Below are positions 1,816 through 39,845 of a stretch of 45,418 nt of DNA, one piece after another. The stretch spans positions 1 through 45,418 of the forward strand of contig NZ_JAFKIC010000134.1 of the NCBI RefSeq assembly GCF_017306585.1. The letters are read 5' to 3'. The notes under the pieces are model-generated. The model was not told where the DNA came from, did not search any database, and saw only the letters and a program-made list of their open reading frames with translations. Position 1 is the first letter of the stretch. Each line of letters opens with the position of its first letter. Origin of the DNA: Mesorhizobium sp. (lineage in GTDB: Bacteria > Pseudomonadota > Alphaproteobacteria > Rhizobiales > Rhizobiaceae). The translations under genes were made by a program, and so were the position numbers.

Positions 1816-2919
1816 ATGCATTTGAGATCGGTTCTGAGCGGCACGCTTGCGATATTGCTCCTATCAGGCGTCACCGCCTTTGCCAGCGGATCGGGGACCG
1901 GCGGCGCCGGGCAAACCGACAGCGGCTTTTCCTTCCATTTGCCGTCGATCGAACTGCCCAGCCTCTTCGGCGACAAGAAGCAGCCCGAGCAGGTCCAACT
2001 CGCGCAGGCAAACAGCACCGCCCAGCTCGAGGACCAGCTGCGCCAGATGAACGGCAAGCTCGAGGAGCTCAATTTCCAGATCCTGCAGATGCAGGAGCAA
2101 ATCCGCAAGCAGCAGGAAGACAACGAGTTCCGCTTCCAGCAGCTCGAGGGCGGCTCGCAAGGCGGGCAGCAGCCGGCAGGGCAGAAGAAGTCGCAGGCGG
2201 CCCCAGCGGGTGCTGACACCAGCGTGGCCGAGGCGCCGGCCACGCAACCTCCGGCCGCTTCGGGCAACCAGGCCGCCAGCCAGTCGTCGGGCGGCCAGAG
2301 CGTCGAGGACGTCATTGTCGAATCCGGCAATGGCGATCCGGGCAAGGTCATTCCCGGAAAAGGAGCGCCTGAAAAGACCTTCGGCTCCATCACCGTCGAC
2401 AAGAACGGCAATGTGATCGATGCCGGAGCCGGCACCCAGGCTACCGCTCCCACGCAGGACGCCGCACCCGCCACCAGCGCTCCGGCCAAGGCTGGCAAGT
2501 CTGACGGCACGGTGGTCGCGGCATTGCCCTCCACCAACAATCCCGAGGAGCTCTACCGCAATTCCTATCAGTTCATCCTGTCGGGCGACTACAGCACCGC
2601 CGAGCAGGGTTTCCGCGACCATATCGCCCGCTTCCCCAAGGACGCCAAGACGGCGGACGCGCATTACTGGCTGGGCGAGTCACTGCTTGGCCAGCAGAAA
2701 TACCGCGACGCGGCGGAAGTCTTCCTCGCCGCCAGCAAGGACTATCCCAAGGCCAAGAAGGCTCCCGATATGCTGCTGAAGCTCGGCGTGTCGCTGGTCG
2801 GCCTCAAGCAACACGACGTGGCTTGCGCCACCTTCAGCGAGGTCGGCAAGCGCTATCCCGATATCTCCAATGCCCTCAAGGAACGCGTCAAGCAGGAGAA
2901 GGCTCTCGCCGCGTGCTGA
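1816..2919 (+). CDS. cpoB: Cell division coordinator CpoB (YbgF), Tol-Pal-associated periplasmic TPR protein
   Basis: The 367-residue protein begins with a signal peptide ending near TAFASG. Residues about 60-105 form a Gln/Glu-rich coiled coil (QLEDQLRQMNGKLEEL, LQMQEQIRKQQED), the trimerisation segment of YbgF. A long Pro/Ala/Gln-rich linker follows. The C-terminal 125 residues are the conserved TPR block beginning NPEELYRNSYQFILSGDYSTAEQ and containing AHYWLGESLLGQQKYRDAA. In E. coli, CpoB connects Tol function with PBP1B activity at the septum. The linker is longer than in the enterobacterial protein (about 260 residues), as is usual in rhizobia. Confidence 0.93.
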   Translation: MHLRSVLSGTLAILLLSGVTAFASGSGTGGAGQTDSGFSFHLPSIELPSLFGDKKQPEQVQLAQANSTAQLEDQLRQMNGKLEELNFQILQMQEQIRKQQEDNEFRFQQLEGGSQGGQQPAGQKKSQAAPAGADTSVAEAPATQPPAASGNQAASQSSGGQSVEDVIVESGNGDPGKVIPGKGAPEKTFGSITVDKNGNVIDAGAGTQATAPTQDAAPATSAPAKAGKSDGTVVAALPSTNNPEELYRNSYQFILSGDYSTAEQGFRDHIARFPKDAKTADAHYWLGESLLGQQKYRDAAEVFLAASKDYPKAKKAPDMLLKLGVSLVGLKQHDVACATFSEVGKRYPDISNALKERVKQEKALAAC

Positions 2920-2929
2920 TCCCGCGGTG

Positions 2930-4342
2930 ATGCCGCAGCCCGGAACCGGGGCTTTCGAGGCGCTTACATTGATGCTCGACACCGAGCCCGATCTTTCGAC
3001 AAAGCTTTTTTCGCACATCGATTTTACCAGCGGCGCCGTTGCAGCCGTGTCCGGCGGCAGCGATTCGACCGCGCTGCTTCTCCTTCTCAAACACCATCTC
3101 GACCAGACAGCGCCGTCCACCAGATTGCTGGCGGTGACGGTAGATCATGGCTTGCGGCGAGGCTCGGCCGCCGAAGCGCAAGCCGTGGCGAAGCTTTGCG
3201 TCGAGCGCGGCATCGCGCACCGCACCATGGCGTGGTCCGGTGACAAGCCATCGACCGGCCTGCCGGCGGCGGCGCGGCAAGCGCGCTACCGGCTGCTGGC
3301 GGGAGCCGCACGCTCTGAGGGGCTTGGCCTGATCGTGACCGGCCACACACTGGACGACCAGGCCGAGACGGTGCTGATGCGGCATGCGCGGGATGCGAAC
3401 CGAGATTCCGCCGATGCAGCCGGACGGGGGCTTGCCGGCATGGCGCCGGCCACGCTCCACGACTGGCGTGAGTGGATCGTGCGCCCGCTTCTCGGGACAA
3501 GCCGTTCGGCGCTTCGCGATTTCCTGCGGCGCGAGCAGGTCGGCTGGGCAGAGGACCCGACCAATGCCGACGAGGCTTTCGAACGGCCGCGCCTGCGCGC
3601 GACGCTAGCTGGCAGCGCCGGGCAAGTGGACGATGTGCTGGCGCTGGCCAGCCGGGTTGCTGCCGAGCGCGGCCGGCTTGGCGCCGATGCGGCGGAATTG
3701 ATCGGCCGCTTCGCGGGCCAGCCGGCCACCGGGCTGCTCCGCCTCGATCCCGGCCTGCTTTCGGCCGGCAACGACCGGGCGGCCGTCTATGCGCTGCGCA
3801 TTCTGCTGGCCACCACGGGCGGGCTCGCCTTCCTGCCGGACCAGTCGCGTGGCGAAGCGTTATTCGGCCGGCTGAGGGCTGGATTTCTTTGCGCCACATT
3901 GTCGCGGACGGTGGTCGATTTCCGGCGCGCCGGCATCTTCCTGCGCCGCGAGGCGCGCGGCTTGCCGCCTGACATCGCGGTCAGTGACGGTGCCGTCTGG
4001 GACGGGCGACGCCGGATCACGTTGAACGACGGCAGCGGCGCATTGTTGATCGGGCCGTGCGGGATGGCGGCGGCGAAAACGCTGGTCCCTGGCGAAGGCG
4101 AAACCCCGCCAAGCCTGACCCGTGCCGCCCTGGCCGCCGAACCGGCGGCGCGACAAGCCCTTGATCCCCCTGGAATGACGCGTGGCGAACGGGCGCCGCC
4201 AGGGTTCGTCGCGCTCCCGGTCGTTGCGCCATTCGCGGGCTTTCTGCCGTCCTTCGATCTTGCGCCGGCGCGCGCCGTGGCTTCGCTGATCGGAGCTACG
4301 CCCGTTCCGGCTTCGCCCTTGCGCGGCCACAGTGCCGGTTGA
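2930..4342 (+). CDS. tilS: tRNA(Ile)-lysidine synthetase TilS
   Basis: TilS attaches lysine to cytidine 34 of the tRNA-Ile CAU anticodon, so that it reads AUA. The ATP-pyrophosphatase P-loop SGGSDS is at residues 41-46, followed by VDHGLR, an ARQARYRLL region and GHTLDDQAETVLMR, all diagnostic of the family. The start is placed at 2930, 10 bases after the cpoB stop; another in-frame ATG at 2972 (MLDTEPDLS) is also possible and would remove 14 residues. The C-terminal part after about residue 300 is poorly conserved, as in other alphaproteobacteria. The close spacing suggests co-transcription with cpoB and then ftsH. Confidence 0.92.
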   Translation: MPQPGTGAFEALTLMLDTEPDLSTKLFSHIDFTSGAVAAVSGGSDSTALLLLLKHHLDQTAPSTRLLAVTVDHGLRRGSAAEAQAVAKLCVERGIAHRTMAWSGDKPSTGLPAAARQARYRLLAGAARSEGLGLIVTGHTLDDQAETVLMRHARDANRDSADAAGRGLAGMAPATLHDWREWIVRPLLGTSRSALRDFLRREQVGWAEDPTNADEAFERPRLRATLAGSAGQVDDVLALASRVAAERGRLGADAAELIGRFAGQPATGLLRLDPGLLSAGNDRAAVYALRILLATTGGLAFLPDQSRGEALFGRLRAGFLCATLSRTVVDFRRAGIFLRREARGLPPDIAVSDGAVWDGRRRITLNDGSGALLIGPCGMAAAKTLVPGEGETPPSLTRAALAAEPAARQALDPPGMTRGERAPPGFVALPVVAPFAGFLPSFDLAPARAVASLIGATPVPASPLRGHSAG

Positions 4343-12185: not shown

Positions 12186-12194
12186 CCGTCCGTG

Positions 12195-12242
12195 GGCCAC
12201 CCCTCCCCAACGAGGGGCCACTATCTGGAAGGATAGACCACG
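12195..12242 (+). ncRNA. serC leader RNA motif (alphaproteobacterial serC 5' UTR)
   Basis: Two small hairpins directly abut the serC start. The first has CCCCT / AGGGG at 12200-12217 within GGCC flanks and a CCCCAACG loop. The second, CTATC / GATAG at 12221-12236, carries the ribosome-binding sequence GGAAGG across its loop and 3' arm, six bases before the ATG. A conserved 'serC motif' upstream of serC in Alphaproteobacteria is described in Rfam, and the layout agrees with my memory of it. Placing the ribosome-binding site in a hairpin suggests translational control, but no ligand is established. Confidence 0.7.
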
Positions 12243-24469: not shown

Positions 24470-24580
24470 GAAACGCTCTAACGGGGTGCCGGCCGCGATC
24501 GTCGCGAACCGGCTGAGAGGCAGTCTCGCCAACCCGCTGAACCTGATCCGGTTTGTACCGGCGGAGGGATTAGACGTTTC
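24470..24580 (+). ncRNA. TPP riboswitch (THI element)
   Basis: Conserved THI-box segments appear in order: ACGGGGTGCC at 24481, GGCTGAGAGG at 24511, CCCGCTGAACCTGATCCGG across 24534-24551, and the closing GGAGGGATTAGA. The outer stem forms between GAAACG at 24470 and CGTTTC at 24575, reinforced by CTA/TAG. When TPP binds, these elements reduce expression of the downstream gene, here thiB, 49 bases further on. The thiB ribosome-binding site AAGGAGG lies outside the aptamer. Confidence 0.96.
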
Positions 24581-24629
24581 GGACAGTCCGACGCCTCAAT
24601 TCCTTTCAATTCGAACGAAGGAGGCGCCG

Positions 24630-33825: not shown

Positions 33826-34407
33826 TCAGGCAGCTTCTTCCTGCTCGGCTTCCTCATTGTCGGCCTTGGCGCCGCGCTTGGGGCCCTTGTTGAGGTTGAC
33901 CTCGATCAGGCGCACGGCTTCGGTTTCCGACATGCGGTTGACGGCGGCGATCTCGCGGGCCATCCGGTCGAGCGCGGCTTCATAGAGCTGGCGTTCGGAA
34001 TAGGACTGTTCCGGCTGGTTGTCGGCGCGGTAGAGGTCGCGCACGACTTCCGAGATCGAGATCAGGTCGCCCGAATTGATCTTGGCATCATATTCCTGGG
34101 CGCGGCGCGACCACATGGTGCGCTTGATGCGGGCGCGGCCCTGCACGACCTTCAGCGCGCGTTCGACATAATCCTCTTCCGACAGCTTGCGCATGCCGAT
34201 GGAGGTCGCCTTGGCGACCGGCACCTTCAGGCGCATCTTGTCCTTCTGGAAGTCGATGACGAACAGTTCCAGCTTGTGCCCGGCCACTTCCTGCTCGTCG
34301 ATCGAAACGATCTGGCCGACGCCGTGCGCCGGGTAGACGATATATTCGCCGGTCTTGAAACCGTGACGCGCACCGGTGGACTTCTTCTGCGGTGTGGTTG
34401 TTGCCAT
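33826..34407 (-). CDS. carD: CarD-family RNA polymerase-binding regulator (CdnL)
   Basis: CarD/CdnL proteins bind the RNA polymerase beta subunit and stabilise open promoter complexes, notably at rRNA promoters. The 193-residue protein has the Tudor-like RNA polymerase interaction domain FKTGEYIVYPAHGVGQIVSIDEQEVAGHKLELFVIDF and KMRLKVPVAKATSIGMRKL. Its helical DNA-binding domain follows, including SRRAQEYDAKINSGDLISISEVVRDL and SERQLYEAALDRMAREIAAV. The tail is acidic (EEAEQEEAA). The start at 34407 (MATTTPQKK) was preferred over an ATG 11 codons earlier. It is followed by a strong terminator. Confidence 0.93.
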   Translation of the reverse strand: MATTTPQKKSTGARHGFKTGEYIVYPAHGVGQIVSIDEQEVAGHKLELFVIDFQKDKMRLKVPVAKATSIGMRKLSEEDYVERALKVVQGRARIKRTMWSRRAQEYDAKINSGDLISISEVVRDLYRADNQPEQSYSERQLYEAALDRMAREIAAVNRMSETEAVRLIEVNLNKGPKRGAKADNEEAEQEEAA

Positions 34408-34777
34408 TACGCCCTGAACTCCTTGTTGTGGTACCGGCATCCTGCCGGCCCGAACTCGTGCGATCGGGGAACCCGATCGTTAGCCGCACAACTGGTGTAC
34501 CCACCGGGAAAGGCCGGGACCGGCAAACCGCACGAATTGCGACCGCCTGGCCCAGATCGCTCTGGTCCGGATTGGGAATTTCACCTTTCAGTGATTTGGG
34601 GCGTCTGCGCCATAAATCGACGTTGTGTCACCGGCATGTTTCGTTGGTGTAACACAAAAAGTCGGAAGAATCAAGGTTTTGCTGCATACGCGAAGGCCAC
34701 GACCTATCGCCGCCTGTCAAGGCGGTTAATGCACCATACCCTTTACGCTGCGTCATACCGCCTGAACGGTAGCGCTG
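34408..34777. other. Intergenic region between fdxA and carD
   Basis: No gene is seen in these 370 bases, which lie downstream of fdxA and upstream of carD on the minus strand. The part near 34620-34690 is relatively AT-rich and probably includes the carD promoter. A small hairpin CCAGATCGCTCTGG at 34551-34564 is the only clear structure. I saw no tRNA fold on either strand. Confidence 0.45.
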
Positions 34778-35116
34778 TCAGTCACCCTCGCCGGGCTCGG
34801 CGGAGAAGTACTTTTCGAACTTGCCGGCCTCGCCGTCGAAGGCCTTTGCGTCGGCCGGCGGTTCCTTCTTGGCCGTGATGTTGGGCCATTTCTCGGCATA
34901 TTCGGTGTTGATCTGCAGCCACTTGTCGAGGCCGGGCTCTGTGTCCGGCTTGATCGCATCCGCGGGGCATTCGGGCTCGCAGACACCGCAGTCGATGCAT
35001 TCGTCCGGATGGATGACGAGCATGTTCTCGCCTTCATAGAAACAGTCGACCGGACAGACTTCGATGCAGTCCATGTACTTGCACTTGATGCAGTTGTCGG
35101 TCACGACATAGGTCAT
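34778..35116 (-). CDS. fdxA: Seven-iron ferredoxin FdxA ([3Fe-4S][4Fe-4S])
   Basis: The 112-residue protein begins [29 protein letters not shown]. By comparison with Azotobacter ferredoxin I, shifted by one residue, Cys9, Cys17 and Cys50 would hold the 3Fe cluster, and Cys21, Cys40, Cys43 and Cys46 the 4Fe cluster. Cys12 and Cys25 match the two non-ligand cysteines of that protein. The long acidic C-terminus ([19 protein letters not shown]) is also shared. The start at 35116 is preceded by GGAG. It acts as a low-potential cytoplasmic electron carrier; partners are not evident from the context. Confidence 0.95.
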
Positions 35117-35350: not shown

Positions 35351-35737
35351 TCAATCGTCTTCGAACAGGCGATCGGTCTGGCGACGCTCTTTCTTGGTGG
35401 GTCGGCCACTGCCGGCCTCGCGCAGCGCCGGGATCGCGTCGGGAAGGGCCTCGCCTTTCGGTGTGGGCGGCGGCGACATGTCTTCGTAAAGGGTACGGGC
35501 TTCCTCGGCCGGGCCGCGCCGGGTGCCGGCGCCGAGCACCTTCCAGACGAAGATGCGCTGGTCGAGCGTGATCGTCAGCACGTCACCGGGCTTGACCAGA
35601 TCGGAGGCCTGCGCCGCTTTGTCGCGATTGATGCGCACGCGACCCGCGACCACCAGCTTCGCCGCCAGCGAGCGCGATTTCACCGCGCGCGAGAAGAACA
35701 GCCATTTGTCGATGCGCTGGCGGCCTTCCGCAACCAT
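35351..35737 (-). CDS. S4-domain RNA-binding protein, HslR-like
   Basis: The 128-residue protein opens with RQRIDKWLFFSRAVKSRSLAAKLVVAGRVRINRDKAAQASDLVKPGDVLTI. This is a complete S4 RNA-binding domain close to that of Hsp15/HslR, which binds 50S subunits stalled with peptidyl-tRNA. The C-terminal part is charged and ends KKERRQTDRLFEDD. It starts 14 bases after the stop of the large helicase on the same strand, and this helicase-S4 pairing is common in Rhizobiales; both are likely RNA-related. The role in ribosome rescue is inferred from the family only. Confidence 0.88.
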   Translation of the reverse strand: MVAEGRQRIDKWLFFSRAVKSRSLAAKLVVAGRVRINRDKAAQASDLVKPGDVLTITLDQRIFVWKVLGAGTRRGPAEEARTLYEDMSPPPTPKGEALPDAIPALREAGSGRPTKKERRQTDRLFEDD

Positions 35738-35751
35738 CGAACCCCGCCGGC

Positions 35752-38700
35752 TTACTTCTTAAGCTGGTCGCGCAGGGCGGCGAGCTTGGCGAAAGGTGAG
35801 TCCGGATCGAAGCGGGCCGGGCGCTCCTCGCGCGGCTTGGGCTGGAAGGCGGGTTTTCCGCCGCCCTTGCCCCGGTCGGGGCCTTTGCCTTCCGCTCTGT
35901 TGTTCTTCCAGTCCGGCCTGCCGTCGCGGCGATCGGCGCGATCGCCTTGCGGCCGTCCGTCACGGCGCTGCTCGCCTTCGCCCTGCGGCTTGGGCTTGAA
36001 CTTGGAGCGGTCGAAGCGCGGCTTGCCGGCGCCGTCGCGCCGACCTTCATGGGCGGGGCGTTCGCCTGACGCGCCGGTCGCCTGAGCGCCACCAGCTTCG
36101 GCCGGCGCATTGCCGCGTCCGCGCGCCTGTCCGTTGCGCTGGCGATTGTTGCGGCCTTCGTGATGGCGGGGGCGCTGCTCGAAGCGGCCCTGACGCCACA
36201 ACAGGATCGGCTTCGGCGCTTCGGCTTCGGCAACGGCCTCGCCAAAGGCCGTTTCGGCCGCCACGGCAGGCTCGTCCGAAACCACCTCAGTTGCCGTCAC
36301 GGCTTCGGCAGCCGGTTCCGCTGGCGTTGCCTCGACAGGCACGGCTTCCACCTCCGGCTCGCCGGCAGGTTCAGCAGCGGCCTCGGCTATCGCCTCCGAT
36401 GCAGGTTCTTCTTCGGCTTCGGCAGGAGCTTGCACCTGCTCTTCCGGAACAGGGTCGGCCTGCGCTTCCGCGATGGCTTCGGCCGGAGCTTCGGCAGCGG
36501 CTGCCGGTTCGGAACCGTCCACCGCAGTCTCCGTAGCCCCATCCGTCGCGGCGGCTTCGGCCGCTCTGGCCTGCTCGGCGCGCGCGGCCTCTTCCGCCGC
36601 GAGCTTGGCGGCGGCGGCTTCCCGGGCGGCATTGTCCTGTGCCTCCAGCCGTGCCTTGACCTCGGCCGCCGGCTTCGGCTCGGCGCGATAGCCAAGGCCT
36701 TTCAGGATCTCTTCCATGTCGTCGGCGGTGGCGCCCAGAATGGACATCATCGGCGGCGTCACCATGAAGGACTGGCCGTCATAGGCGCCGTCCGGACGTT
36801 GGCCGAGGCCGGGCTTCCAGTTGGTCGCCGGGCGGATCAGGTCGGCCAGCCGCTCCAGAATGTCGATGCGCACGGCGCGGCGGCCGAGATTGCGGTAGCC
36901 GGCCAGCTTGTAAAAGGCCTTGTCGAAGGCCTGATCGATGACGACGGACGTGCGTCCGGATGCCAGCGCATGGACGACATCGCCAAAACCAGGCTTGTCC
37001 TTGCCGTCGTTCTTCAGCGCCCACAGCAGCGTCACCAGTCCGGCGGGAGCCGGCTTGATCAAGGCCGGCACGAAGACATGATAAGCGCCGAAGCGTACGC
37101 CCAGCCGGCGAAGCGCTGCCCGGCCTTCCTGGTCGAGCGACTTCATCTCCTCGGCGATGTCGCGGCGGTTGATGAGGCCGAAATTCTCGACCAGCTGGAA
37201 CGCGATGCCTCTGCCGATGCCCGAAATCTGCTCGGCATTCTTCAAATCGACCAGCGGCTTCAGCAGCGACTCGATCTGGAAATTGACGAACCGTTCGGCG
37301 CGCGCGGCGACCTTGTCGCGCGCCGGGCCGGTCAGCTGTTCGTCGGCCAAAAGCACGAGGCGCGGCTTCAGCGCGTCTTCGCCGGACACCAGCGTGCCGA
37401 TCGGCGCGCCGATCCAGCGCAGGACACCGTCCGAGCCAAGCGCGAGGTCGCCATTGGGGCAGGCGCCGAAGCGTTCGGCGCGCGCCTCGAATTCGGCGGC
37501 CAGCGCCTTCTGCGCGGCGGTGCGCACGGCCTTGGCGTCTTCGCCGCCGGCCGTCTGGTCGGCGGTGAAGCGGAACCCCTGCAATTCGCCAACGTGATGG
37601 CCTTCGACAAGGACGGTTCCGGTAGGACTGATTTCGGCTTCAGGCATGGTATTTTCTCTAAGGCGCCGCATGAGGACGGAAGTCCTGCGGTCTACGAAGC
37701 GTTTCGTCAACCGTTCATGCAGCGCATCCGACAGTCTGTCTTCGATTTCGCGCGTCTTTTCCTGCCAGTGTGCCTGATCGGCCAGCCAGCCGGGCCGGTT
37801 CGACACGAATGTCCAGGTGCGGATCTGCGCGATGCGGTGCGACAGCGTGTCGATGTCGCCCTCGGTGGTGTCGGCGCGGCGCACCTGCTCGGCCATGTAG
37901 TTCTCGTCGACATGGCCATGGCGGGCAAGGTCCATGTAGATCGAAGCGATGAGATCGGCGTGCTGGGCCGGCGCGATCTTGCGGTAGTCGGGCAGCGCGC
38001 AGGCTTCCCACAACAGCGCCACGCGTTTGGCATCGCTGGCAAGAGCGCGGATCTCCTCGTCGCGCGACAGATATTCGAGCGCCTGCGCATCGACGGCCGG
38101 CAGAGCGCGGGTCAGGCCCTCGACCGGCGCGTTGGTCTCGATCGAGCGCTTCAGCGCGTCAAGGCTGCTGAAGTCGAAGCGGGCGGTGCGCCATTGCAGC
38201 ACCTTCACCGGGTCGAAGTCATGGCTTTCGATCTTCTTGACCAGTTCCTCGTCGAGCGGGTCGACCTGGCCGGTGACGCCGAAAGTGCCATCGCGCAGAT
38301 GCCGGCCGGCGCGGCCGGCGATCTGGCCAAGCTCGGCTGCCGTCAGGTTGCGGTACTGATAGCCGTCGAACTTTCGGTTCTGGGCGAAGGCGACATGGTC
38401 GAGATCGAGGTTGAGGCCCATGCCGATGGCGTCGGTGGCGACGAGATAGTCGACATCGCCCGACTGGAATAGCGCCACCTGCGCGTTGCGCGTGCGCGGC
38501 GAAAGCGCACCGAGCACGACGGCGGCACCGCCCTGCTGGCGGCGGATCAGTTCGGCGATGGCGTAGACCTCGTCGGCGGAGAAGGCGACGATCGCCGTGC
38601 GGCGCGGCAGGCGGGTCAGCTTCTTGGAACCGGCATAGGCCAGATGCGACAGGCGCGGCCTCGTCACCACCGAGACGCCTTTGAGCAGACGCTGCAATAT

Positions 38701-39126
38701 GCCGTGCATGGTGGCGGCGCCGAGCAGCAGCGTTTCCTGGCGGCCGCGCAGGTGCAGGATGCGGTCGGTGAAGATGTGGCCGCGCTCGAGGTCTCCGGCG
38801 AGCTGCACCTCGTCGATGGCGACGAAGGCGGCATCGGTCTCGCGCGGCATCGCCTCGACGGTGCAGACCGAATATTTCGCGCCGGGCGGCTGGATCTTTT
38901 CCTCGCCGGTGATCAGCGCGACCTTGTGGGCCCCGACCTTCTCGCAGACACGGCCATAGACCTCGCGCGCCAGCAGCCGAAGCGGCAGGCCGATGACGCC
39001 GGTCTCGTGCGCCACCATGCGCTCGATGGCGAGATGGGTCTTGCCGGTGTTGGTCGGTCCAAGCACGGCGGTCACGTCGCGGCCCGACAGGATCAGCGGC
39101 TCTGTGTGTTTGGGCTGGATATTCAT
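35752..39126 (-). CDS. Suv3-like DEAD/DEAH-box RNA helicase with long disordered C-terminus
   Basis: A protein of about 1124 residues when started at 39126 (MNIQPKHTEPLILSGRDVTAVLGPTNTGKTH). Walker A GPTNTGKT is at 23-30 and the Walker B box DEVQ at 105-108. GAATM, LGALSPRTRNAQVALFQSGDVDYLVATDAIGMGLNLD and QIAGRAGRHLRDGTFG complete a superfamily 2 helicase core like mitochondrial Suv3, which acts with RNA-degrading enzymes. A helical domain follows to about residue 810. Residues about 815-970 are Ala/Glu/Pro-rich and acidic, then 975-1110 are Arg/Gly/Asn/Lys-rich and basic, probably an RNA-binding disordered tail. The weak upstream site leaves the exact start uncertain. Confidence 0.9.
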   Translation of the reverse strand: MNIQPKHTEPLILSGRDVTAVLGPTNTGKTHLAIERMVAHETGVIGLPLRLLAREVYGRVCEKVGAHKVALITGEEKIQPPGAKYSVCTVEAMPRETDAAFVAIDEVQLAGDLERGHIFTDRILHLRGRQETLLLGAATMHGILQRLLKGVSVVTRPRLSHLAYAGSKKLTRLPRRTAIVAFSADEVYAIAELIRRQQGGAAVVLGALSPRTRNAQVALFQSGDVDYLVATDAIGMGLNLDLDHVAFAQNRKFDGYQYRNLTAAELGQIAGRAGRHLRDGTFGVTGQVDPLDEELVKKIESHDFDPVKVLQWRTARFDFSSLDALKRSIETNAPVEGLTRALPAVDAQALEYLSRDEEIRALASDAKRVALLWEACALPDYRKIAPAQHADLIASIYMDLARHGHVDENYMAEQVRRADTTEGDIDTLSHRIAQIRTWTFVSNRPGWLADQAHWQEKTREIEDRLSDALHERLTKRFVDRRTSVLMRRLRENTMPEAEISPTGTVLVEGHHVGELQGFRFTADQTAGGEDAKAVRTAAQKALAAEFEARAERFGACPNGDLALGSDGVLRWIGAPIGTLVSGEDALKPRLVLLADEQLTGPARDKVAARAERFVNFQIESLLKPLVDLKNAEQISGIGRGIAFQLVENFGLINRRDIAEEMKSLDQEGRAALRRLGVRFGAYHVFVPALIKPAPAGLVTLLWALKNDGKDKPGFGDVVHALASGRTSVVIDQAFDKAFYKLAGYRNLGRRAVRIDILERLADLIRPATNWKPGLGQRPDGAYDGQSFMVTPPMMSILGATADDMEEILKGLGYRAEPKPAAEVKARLEAQDNAAREAAAAKLAAEEAARAEQARAAEAAATDGATETAVDGSEPAAAAEAPAEAIAEAQADPVPEEQVQAPAEAEEEPASEAIAEAAAEPAGEPEVEAVPVEATPAEPAAEAVTATEVVSDEPAVAAETAFGEAVAEAEAPKPILLWRQGRFEQRPRHHEGRNNRQRNGQARGRGNAPAEAGGAQATGASGERPAHEGRRDGAGKPRFDRSKFKPKPQGEGEQRRDGRPQGDRADRRDGRPDWKNNRAEGKGPDRGKGGGKPAFQPKPREERPARFDPDSPFAKLAALRDQLKK

Positions 39127-39845
39127 CGGCTCGGAAATAAGGCTTTCTGGCCACTCATTGTCGGGAGCGCGCCTCGCGTGGCGCGTGTGACAGGCGACAC
39201 ATAGGGATTTCGGGCGCGAAGCGAAAGCGGAATGTTCCGGCAGGGGCCTGGAGGTGCCTTGGTCAACCCGCAAATCAGCCGGCGCTTAACAGTTGGAACG
39301 AGTCTGGAACGAATCGGCGACGAATCGCTGACTCCTCGGGATTCAGCTTTTGTTCACGGCTACATATGGATTTCGTGACCATGAGTCTCACCACATGCTG
39401 AATCGTCGAACTGGCCCGTTTTATGCTAGGCGAGTTACGCCGTTAATCCTTGCCGGAACGCTGGTCGAGCGGCCCGCCGGCTTCCGGCCAAGATTATGAA
39501 ATTGTTAATCTTTCTGAATTTCGTCTTAAAGAATTCCGCAGGTTTCAGGCGATTAATGTTAACATTGCGCTCAAAGCCGGAACGAATCGGCGACAAACCG
39601 GCGCCGGCGCTATTTTCCCGGTTTGTTCCGTCAATATGTTGTGTTGTGAACAGCTTATCCACCGACAATCCACAGGCTTGACCACAGGTTTAGCCACAGA
39701 TTCCGGTGAGCCTGTCTGTCGCCGTTAACCTTTGCGTGCCGGATTGGATCATCGCGCGGCGCCGTGTTCCCGGACCCGCGGAACTGGAACTGAAAAGCGG
39801 ACCGGTTCCCGATCCGCTATCACGGCTTGAAGGCCGTTGCCTGTC
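39127..39845. other. Long noncoding region with GANTC cluster, AT-rich tract and DnaA-box-like array
   Basis: No gene is convincing in these 719 bases between phbB (3' end) and the helicase (5' end). They hold nine GANTC sites between 39300 and 39703, five of them within 45 bases. The AT-rich tract at 39494-39570 includes the perfect palindrome AATGTTAACATT (39555-39566). The 16-mer GGAACGAATCGGCGAC occurs twice, at 39306 and 39579. Four TTATCCACA-like 9-mers are spaced 11-12 bases apart at 39655-39698. The upstream part must also contain the helicase promoter. See the findings for interpretation. Confidence 0.75.
39655..39698 (+). promoter_or_regulatory. Array of four DnaA-box-like 9-mers
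   Basis: TTATCCACC (39655), CAATCCACA (39666), TTGACCACA (39678) and TTAGCCACA (39690) are all in the same orientation with start-to-start distances of 11, 12 and 12 bases, close to one helical turn. Against TTATCCACA they match 8, 7, 7 and 8 of 9 positions. Regular phasing of weak boxes beside an AT-rich tract resembles DnaA loading arrays. Confidence 0.55.

Follow-up and report, generated by a model that had tools for sequence, protein, structure and literature searches.

Why should nine GANTC sites be packed into a short noncoding stretch ahead of an RNA helicase gene in Mesorhizobium? The window, by which we mean the whole 45,418-nt stretch of DNA that was analysed, contains a gap (39127-39845) between the start codon of a Suv3-like helicase gene (ATG at 39126, minus strand) and the stop codon of phaB (39846, minus strand). 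A first-pass annotation of the DNA had offered three options for this noncoding stretch: a replication origin, a datA-like sink for DnaA, or a region that controls the helicase gene and carries methylation sites. The genes downstream and two of the features within the gap are as follows.

35752-39126, minus strand: Suv3-like RNA helicase, homologue of mgpS and the presumed target of control (PF22527 DEXQc_Suv3, E = 2.3e-26)
35351-35737, minus strand: S4-domain protein, the next gene downstream of the helicase (PF01479)
34778-35116, minus strand: ferredoxin of the FdxA type (PF00037, PF11953)
33826-34440, minus strand: CarD/CdnL-type transcription regulator (PF02559, PF21095)
39180-39237, minus strand: second genus-conserved block, where the window's base is common to 94-96% of 30 aligned rows on average
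39655-39698, plus strand: four 9-mers resembling DnaA boxes, characteristic mainly of the genus

Sequence features of the gap

GANTC sites were located at 39300, 39311, 39322, 39330, 39340, 39383, 39400, 39584, and 39699. This confirms the count in the first-pass annotation of nine sites within 404 bases (39300-39703), five of them at 39300-39344, and the number exceeds expectation: dinucleotide shuffles of the same stretch had a mean of 2.0 sites, and only 1 of 2000 shuffles reached nine or more. Every other 404-nt stretch of the window holds four GANTC sites at most. The window as a whole is depleted in GANTC, with 61 sites observed and 209 expected from shuffles, so the cluster at 39300-39703 stands out.

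Several other features that had been described from the letters were also recovered. The AT-rich tract was placed at 39485-39545, where the AT content is 66% vs. 36% for the window. The repeated 16-mer, GGAACGAATCGGCGAC, was found at 39306 and 39579, its copies 273 nt apart as had been reported, and proved to be the core of the second copy of the element described below. The sequence AATGTTAACATT is present at 39555. The palindrome noted in the first-pass annotation was found in its full form in only 2 of the 30 aligned rows from the genus. Motifs of the TTAA type, CGCCGTTAA(T/C)C(C/T)TTGC, occur at 39438-39453 and 39720-39735 (repeat distance, 282 nt), and at least two such motifs were present in 20 of the 30 genus rows.

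Alignment of the gap across the genus revealed two strongly kept blocks, the GANTC cluster with its flank and the block at 39180-39237. The latter lies between the element and the helicase start, contains no recognisable motif and may be where the helicase promoter lies. A sigma-70 consensus scan of the gap (39127-39845) detected no promoter, the block at 39180-39237 included, and a promoter-like motif, defined by a regular expression, was found in only 20 of 197 spacers between the element and the helicase gene.

Anatomy, spread and linkage of the conserved element

The GANTC cluster belongs to an element of about 80 bp that aligns nearly without gaps (zero gaps in 25 rows and few in 55 diverse rows). 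In a 29-row core alignment from the genus, columns 2-100 had no internal gap. A sequence-only profile, R1, was built from 25 rows. The loci collected numbered 210 and represented 198 distinct places (12 were duplicates). Counts of element copies and of DnaA boxes were made on distinct places, and the anatomy of the element was derived from 92 proximal copies, less than 82% alike, drawn from the 210 loci. The parts of the element in the window are listed below.

39292-39374, plus strand: proximal copy of the element (model positions 2-84; R1, E = 1.4e-24)
39296-39310, plus strand: GAAC-N7-GAAC (GTTC-N7-GTTC on the helicase strand), with the first GANTC in its spacer; found in 78 of 92 copies
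39310-39327, plus strand: CGAATCG twice, at an interval of 11 bp; read on the other strand, both match the extended GcrA motif YGAKTCG
39330-39334, plus strand: GACTC, the fourth GANTC; 76 of 92 copies have GANTC here, in the form GACTC in all but one
39350-39355, plus strand: inverted half-site TTGTTC, which closes the 49-bp unit begun by the GAAC at 39307
39577-39645, plus strand: distal copy, 273 nt from the proximal one and including the second occurrence of the 16-mer (R1, E = 3.7e-4)

GANTC was present at model positions 10, 21, 32, 40, and 50 in 43, 60, 90, 76, and 47 of the 92 copies, respectively. The site was GAATC in 60 of 60 copies at position 21 and in 90 of 90 at position 32, and GACTC in 75 of 76 at position 40; the base N was mostly G at position 10 (39 of 43) and varied at position 50. 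The fixation of N calls for a protein that reads the sequence and not for methylation alone. GAAC was found at positions 6-9 in 82 copies and at positions 17-20 in 87, with both present in 78 copies, 35 of which had no GANTC in the spacer. CGAATCR was near-invariant at the second site (39321-39327 in the window; 90 of 92 copies) and was present at the first (39310-39316) in 54 of 92. The span from GAAC to GTTC was 49 bp in 72 of the 85 copies measured. As read from the aligned copies, the repeat unit is an 11-bp direct GAAC-GANTC-NN that is read from one helix face, and the repeats are combined with an inverted GTTC.

Multiple copies of the element were common. Two to four copies (at least 10 bits, on the same strand and within 1200 nt) were detected at 109 of the 198 distinct places, with four copies at 6 of the 198, and 100 of 128 further copies were located 200-290 nt further on. 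The spacings between copies did not cluster clearly at multiples of 10-11 bp. Distal copies contained CGAATCR in 117 of 128 cases and GAAC-N7-GAAC in only five. Four tandem profile matches were observed at one locus (L297 in G133, 2917-3986).

The element is old and widespread. A search with the gap in 61 genomes gave matches in 42, of which 37, counting the window's own genome, belong to the same genus as the window. Profile R1 matched 106 of 150 genomes drawn from the order (61 of 86 genera, in 37 families) and 20 of 192 drawn from the class; 17 of the latter were outside the order, in 11 families, and some class-draw matches were weak (E near 1e-3). The remaining 172 genomes of the class draw had no R1 match. 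Among 249 genomes drawn from the phylum there were 35 matches, all 35 within the class (the share of the 249 that falls outside the class is not given). Searches of more than 40 genomes used stricter filters, by which weak matches were lost. A pattern scan of named genomes found at least 118 stretches, and those listed include records from Mesorhizobium, Rhizobium, Agrobacterium, Ensifer, Bradyrhizobium, Nitrobacter, and Methyloceanibacter. The first-pass annotation had made its proposal depend on conservation between species, and the GANTC cluster is indeed kept across genera and families. The parts most widely shared are GAAC, CGAATCR and GTTC. GANTC sites other than the central one were often missing from class-level sequences, so the clustering of methylation sites need not be ancestral. 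The full GANTC cluster is, judging by this distribution, an elaboration within the order.

The element is closely tied to the helicase gene. In the order, the helicase adjoined the element in divergent orientation at 26 of 26 distinct places (31 loci, five of them duplicates). In the class draw, the helicase was beside the element in 16 of 18 loci, and none was detected within about 1.5 kb in the other two. Among the matches listed from named genomes, the helicase was adjacent and divergent in 113 of 118 loci, and the other five offered at most 405 nt of DNA on the helicase side on which to judge; six of the 118 are places that also occur in other samples. The gene on the far side of the element differed between genomes (phaB in the window; others by eye). 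The distance from the element to the start codon ranged from 32 nt upwards (197 loci, repeats included), with a median of about 165 bp in 111 named loci among the matches listed. Because the element stays with the helicase gene, a helicase control region with methylation sites fits best among the three options of the first-pass annotation. The S4, ferredoxin and CarD genes, which follow the helicase in the same direction, are probably controlled by the element as well. The homologue in S. meliloti, mgpS (SMc03877), is described in the excerpts available as an RNA helicase that is raised under acid (PMC4941405).

The helicase was sought in 19 R1-negative genomes, out of 44 such genomes in the order draw and 172 in the class draw, and 18 of the 19 carried it. 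A degenerate element was detected upstream in four of the 18, and no element was found upstream in the other 14 (9 of 13 members of the order and all five members of the class from outside it), suggesting that the element is dispensable or has been replaced in some lineages. No second element locus was detected in the window's genome at E values up to 5 (150 of 1909 first-look candidates were scored). In a few families a second, weaker locus was found elsewhere than beside the helicase. The element is therefore not strictly confined to one locus, and the genes flanking these secondary loci showed no common function. At loci L282-L288 (families f20 and f34), the weak second copy was near transketolase-like or PHA-depolymerase-like genes, as judged by eye.

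DnaA-like boxes, replication and RNA structure

The four same-strand 9-mers that the first-pass annotation had likened to DnaA boxes at 39655-39698 were recovered. They are TTATCCACC (39655), CAATCCACA (39666), TTGACCACA (39678), and TTAGCCACA (39690), all on the plus strand, and they differ from TTATCCACA by one or two mismatches. None of 1000 shuffles of 39600-39720 contained four such 9-mers (mean, 0.3). Of the 37 genus loci, 31 had a DnaA-like box with at most one mismatch, usually in the same position; such a box was also present at 5 of 26 distinct places in the order, in 6 of 18 class loci and, among the matches listed, in 34 of 113 named loci. The corresponding background counts, made on coding DNA not matched in composition, were 0 of 37, 2 of 26, 1 of 18, and 2 of 113. 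Of the 34 box-bearing named loci among the matches listed, 23 had a title, and 14 of these 23 were Mesorhizobium. The distribution of the boxes indicates that the DnaA-like array was acquired later, inside the genus.

The datA and DARS loci of E. coli are noncoding clusters of DnaA boxes, usually not far from the origin, and the gap resembles them in being noncoding, in carrying a DnaA-box-like cluster and in lying, as a rule, fairly near the origin. A locus that binds DnaA, and so titrates it or adjusts the timing of replication, would be in keeping with an array beyond chance, with the frequency of the box in the genus and with the position of the element, which in 17 of 20 single-contig genomes had hemE less than 0.5 Mb away. 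Unlike datA and DARS, however, the gap has boxes that are mainly a genus feature, and the conserved element is not made of DnaA boxes. The box frequency in the order (5 of 26 vs. 2 of 26 in the background) was low while the element was kept, the element stayed with the helicase gene, and its distance from hemE reached 2.3 Mb. A DnaA sink or timing locus is considered very improbable. What stands of the datA-like option of the first-pass annotation is the presence of the boxes in most of the genus; the scarcity of boxes in the order and the far greater age of the GANTC element weaken it.

Chromosomal origins in alphaproteobacteria are linked to hemE, and like the region in the window, they combine GANTC sites, DnaA-like boxes and AT-rich DNA. 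The co-occurrence of the three in the gap is the argument for an origin. Unlike the hemE-linked origins, however, the element does not lie beside hemE, from which it was separated by 37 kb to 2.3 Mb in 20 single-contig genomes, and it is not marked by a change in GC skew. The skew was sampled in two single-contig relatives, G089 (40 samples; hemE 985 kb from the element) and G033 (28 samples; hemE about 452 kb from the element). In G089, all 24 stretches sampled between 0.42 and 2.82 Mb had a negative skew, and the element (1.86 Mb) falls in this range. Beside hemE (2.844 Mb) the skew was positive, at 2.846 and 2.90 Mb, and further on it was near zero with mixed sign. In G033, the skew was weak and mostly positive from 0.9 to 1.7 Mb, rose near hemE (0.95 Mb) and did not change lastingly at 1.40 Mb, where the element lies. 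An origin was rejected because the sampled GC skew changes near hemE and not at the element. The GC-skew check that the first-pass annotation had called for thus contradicts its origin option, and the region is almost certainly something other than a chromosomal origin. One single-contig genome (G009, contig C1) contained two full hemE-family matches, at 1053809 and 6231635.

The GAAC repeats are complementary to the GTTC arm, and the consensus fold for the genus pairs the first GAAC with GTTC, which would be expected if the element were a structured RNA, either a leader of the helicase transcript or a small RNA. The covariation of the first GAAC with GTTC was 0.183 vs. 0.173 in shuffled alignments (110 of 500 shuffles at least as high), and that of the second GAAC was 0.098 vs. 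a shuffled mean of 0.109 (400 of 500 at least as high). An Rfam search of the gap gave no match, and the single terminator-like site detected is at about the shuffle level (mean, 1.3). The RNA reading was rejected on the lack of compensatory changes in the stem and of an Rfam match; we consider it very unlikely. Two RNA elements were detected elsewhere in the window, both on the plus strand: a serC leader RNA (RF00517) at 12190-12241 (E = 2.3e-13) and a TPP riboswitch (RF00059) at 24472-24586 (E = 2e-11).

Candidate readers of the element

In alphaproteobacteria, the LexA box is GTTCN7GTTC, as given in the excerpts available of two papers (PMC12700426, PMC3323433). The proximal copy shares this form, a GTTC-N7-GTTC direct repeat with a period of 11, in 78 of the 92 diverse copies, 35 of them with no GANTC in the spacer. 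Among the 22 lexA loci in the compared genomes, 18 have the same form ahead of the gene, that of the window's genome being one of them; two of the remaining four loci had no box match and two could not be placed. The proximal copy might then be mainly a LexA operator and the helicase operon an SOS gene, with LexA bound to GTTC-N7-GTTC and released upon DNA damage. Several observations argue against this. Unlike LexA boxes, the repeat is embedded in a conserved stretch of 80 bp, far past the 15 bp of a LexA box. Distal copies mostly lack the first half-site (five of 128 have GAAC-N7-GAAC), yet 117 keep CGAATCR. Some members of the class have GGAC or GATC at one half-site, and the spacer is not A-rich, unlike that of lexA promoters (by eye). 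We know of no SOS membership for the helicase, and the literature search found nothing, in the parts of the papers it covered, that names the helicase as an SOS gene. The presence of lexA was not discriminating as a natural experiment, as 22 of 24 genomes carried lexA, those that have lost the first GAAC among them. A role of the proximal copy mainly as a LexA operator is unlikely, although well short of negligible.

The sequence of the element points more to GcrA and CcrM. A RAMA domain, which we take to be the C-terminal domain of CcrM, was detected in 19 of the 20 genomes examined, the window's own included, consistent with the presence of CcrM. With RAMA in 19 of 20 genomes, the use of CcrM-less genomes as a natural experiment was not discriminating. 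GcrA sites usually lie nearer the gene start than the median distance of about 165 bp found for the element. The extended motif of GcrA-activated promoters is YGAKTCG, according to the available part of its description (PMC7987155), and the near-invariant CGAATCR (90 of 92 copies) has this form on the helicase strand. Of the 61 GANTC sites in the window, 11 are in the extended form, and three of these are in this region. The element resembles GcrA/CcrM-controlled promoters (those of Caulobacter and Brevundimonas, and of gcrA and repABC in Agrobacterium) in having clustered GANTC sites upstream of a gene in CcrM-bearing genomes; six GANTC sites are reported in the upstream 250 bp of Agrobacterium gcrA in the accessible part of the source (PMC11514494). 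Unlike those promoters, the element has its GANTC sites in a rigid 11-bp array with GAAC, with fixed N positions; this array has been kept between families and between orders and may sit upstream of the promoter. The element probably has CcrM/GcrA input. GcrA and CcrM may be likelier readers than LexA, which would overlap or compete with them, and another protein may be the reader instead.

Taken together, we favour, with moderate confidence, the reading that the region is an ancient, protein-binding control element of the helicase (mgpS) operon that acts at the level of DNA, probably with CcrM/GcrA input and perhaps with LexA. Each module would present a protein with two or three GAAC-GANTC-NN direct repeats on one helix face, would end in an inverted GTTC and would usually measure 49 bp in all. 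Where there are several modules, the next usually lies 200-290 bp further upstream. A protein bound to the element would set transcription of the helicase gene. The CGAATCR sites would be methylated by CcrM and read by GcrA, so that passage of the replication fork and remethylation would modulate the helicase gene, and the GAAC-N7-GAAC of the proximal copy may be read by LexA.

To our knowledge, intergenic DNA is rarely conserved over 80 bp across families and orders. A literature search of open-licence papers found no description of the element. It is possible, although we put this forward only tentatively and from sequence comparison, that the element represents a type of composite operator new for the alphaproteobacteria, in which an array of methylated GANTC sites (GcrA/CcrM) is fused to a LexA-type repeat at one multi-copy locus per genome. 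Such an operator would make the operon of the RNA helicase and CarD respond to the passage of the fork and to DNA damage; alternatively, it would be read by a dedicated DNA-binding protein. The element provides a defined place for studying the interplay of GcrA, LexA and methylation by CcrM at a promoter, and its conservation suggests old, tight control of the little-studied MgpS helicase operon, CarD included.
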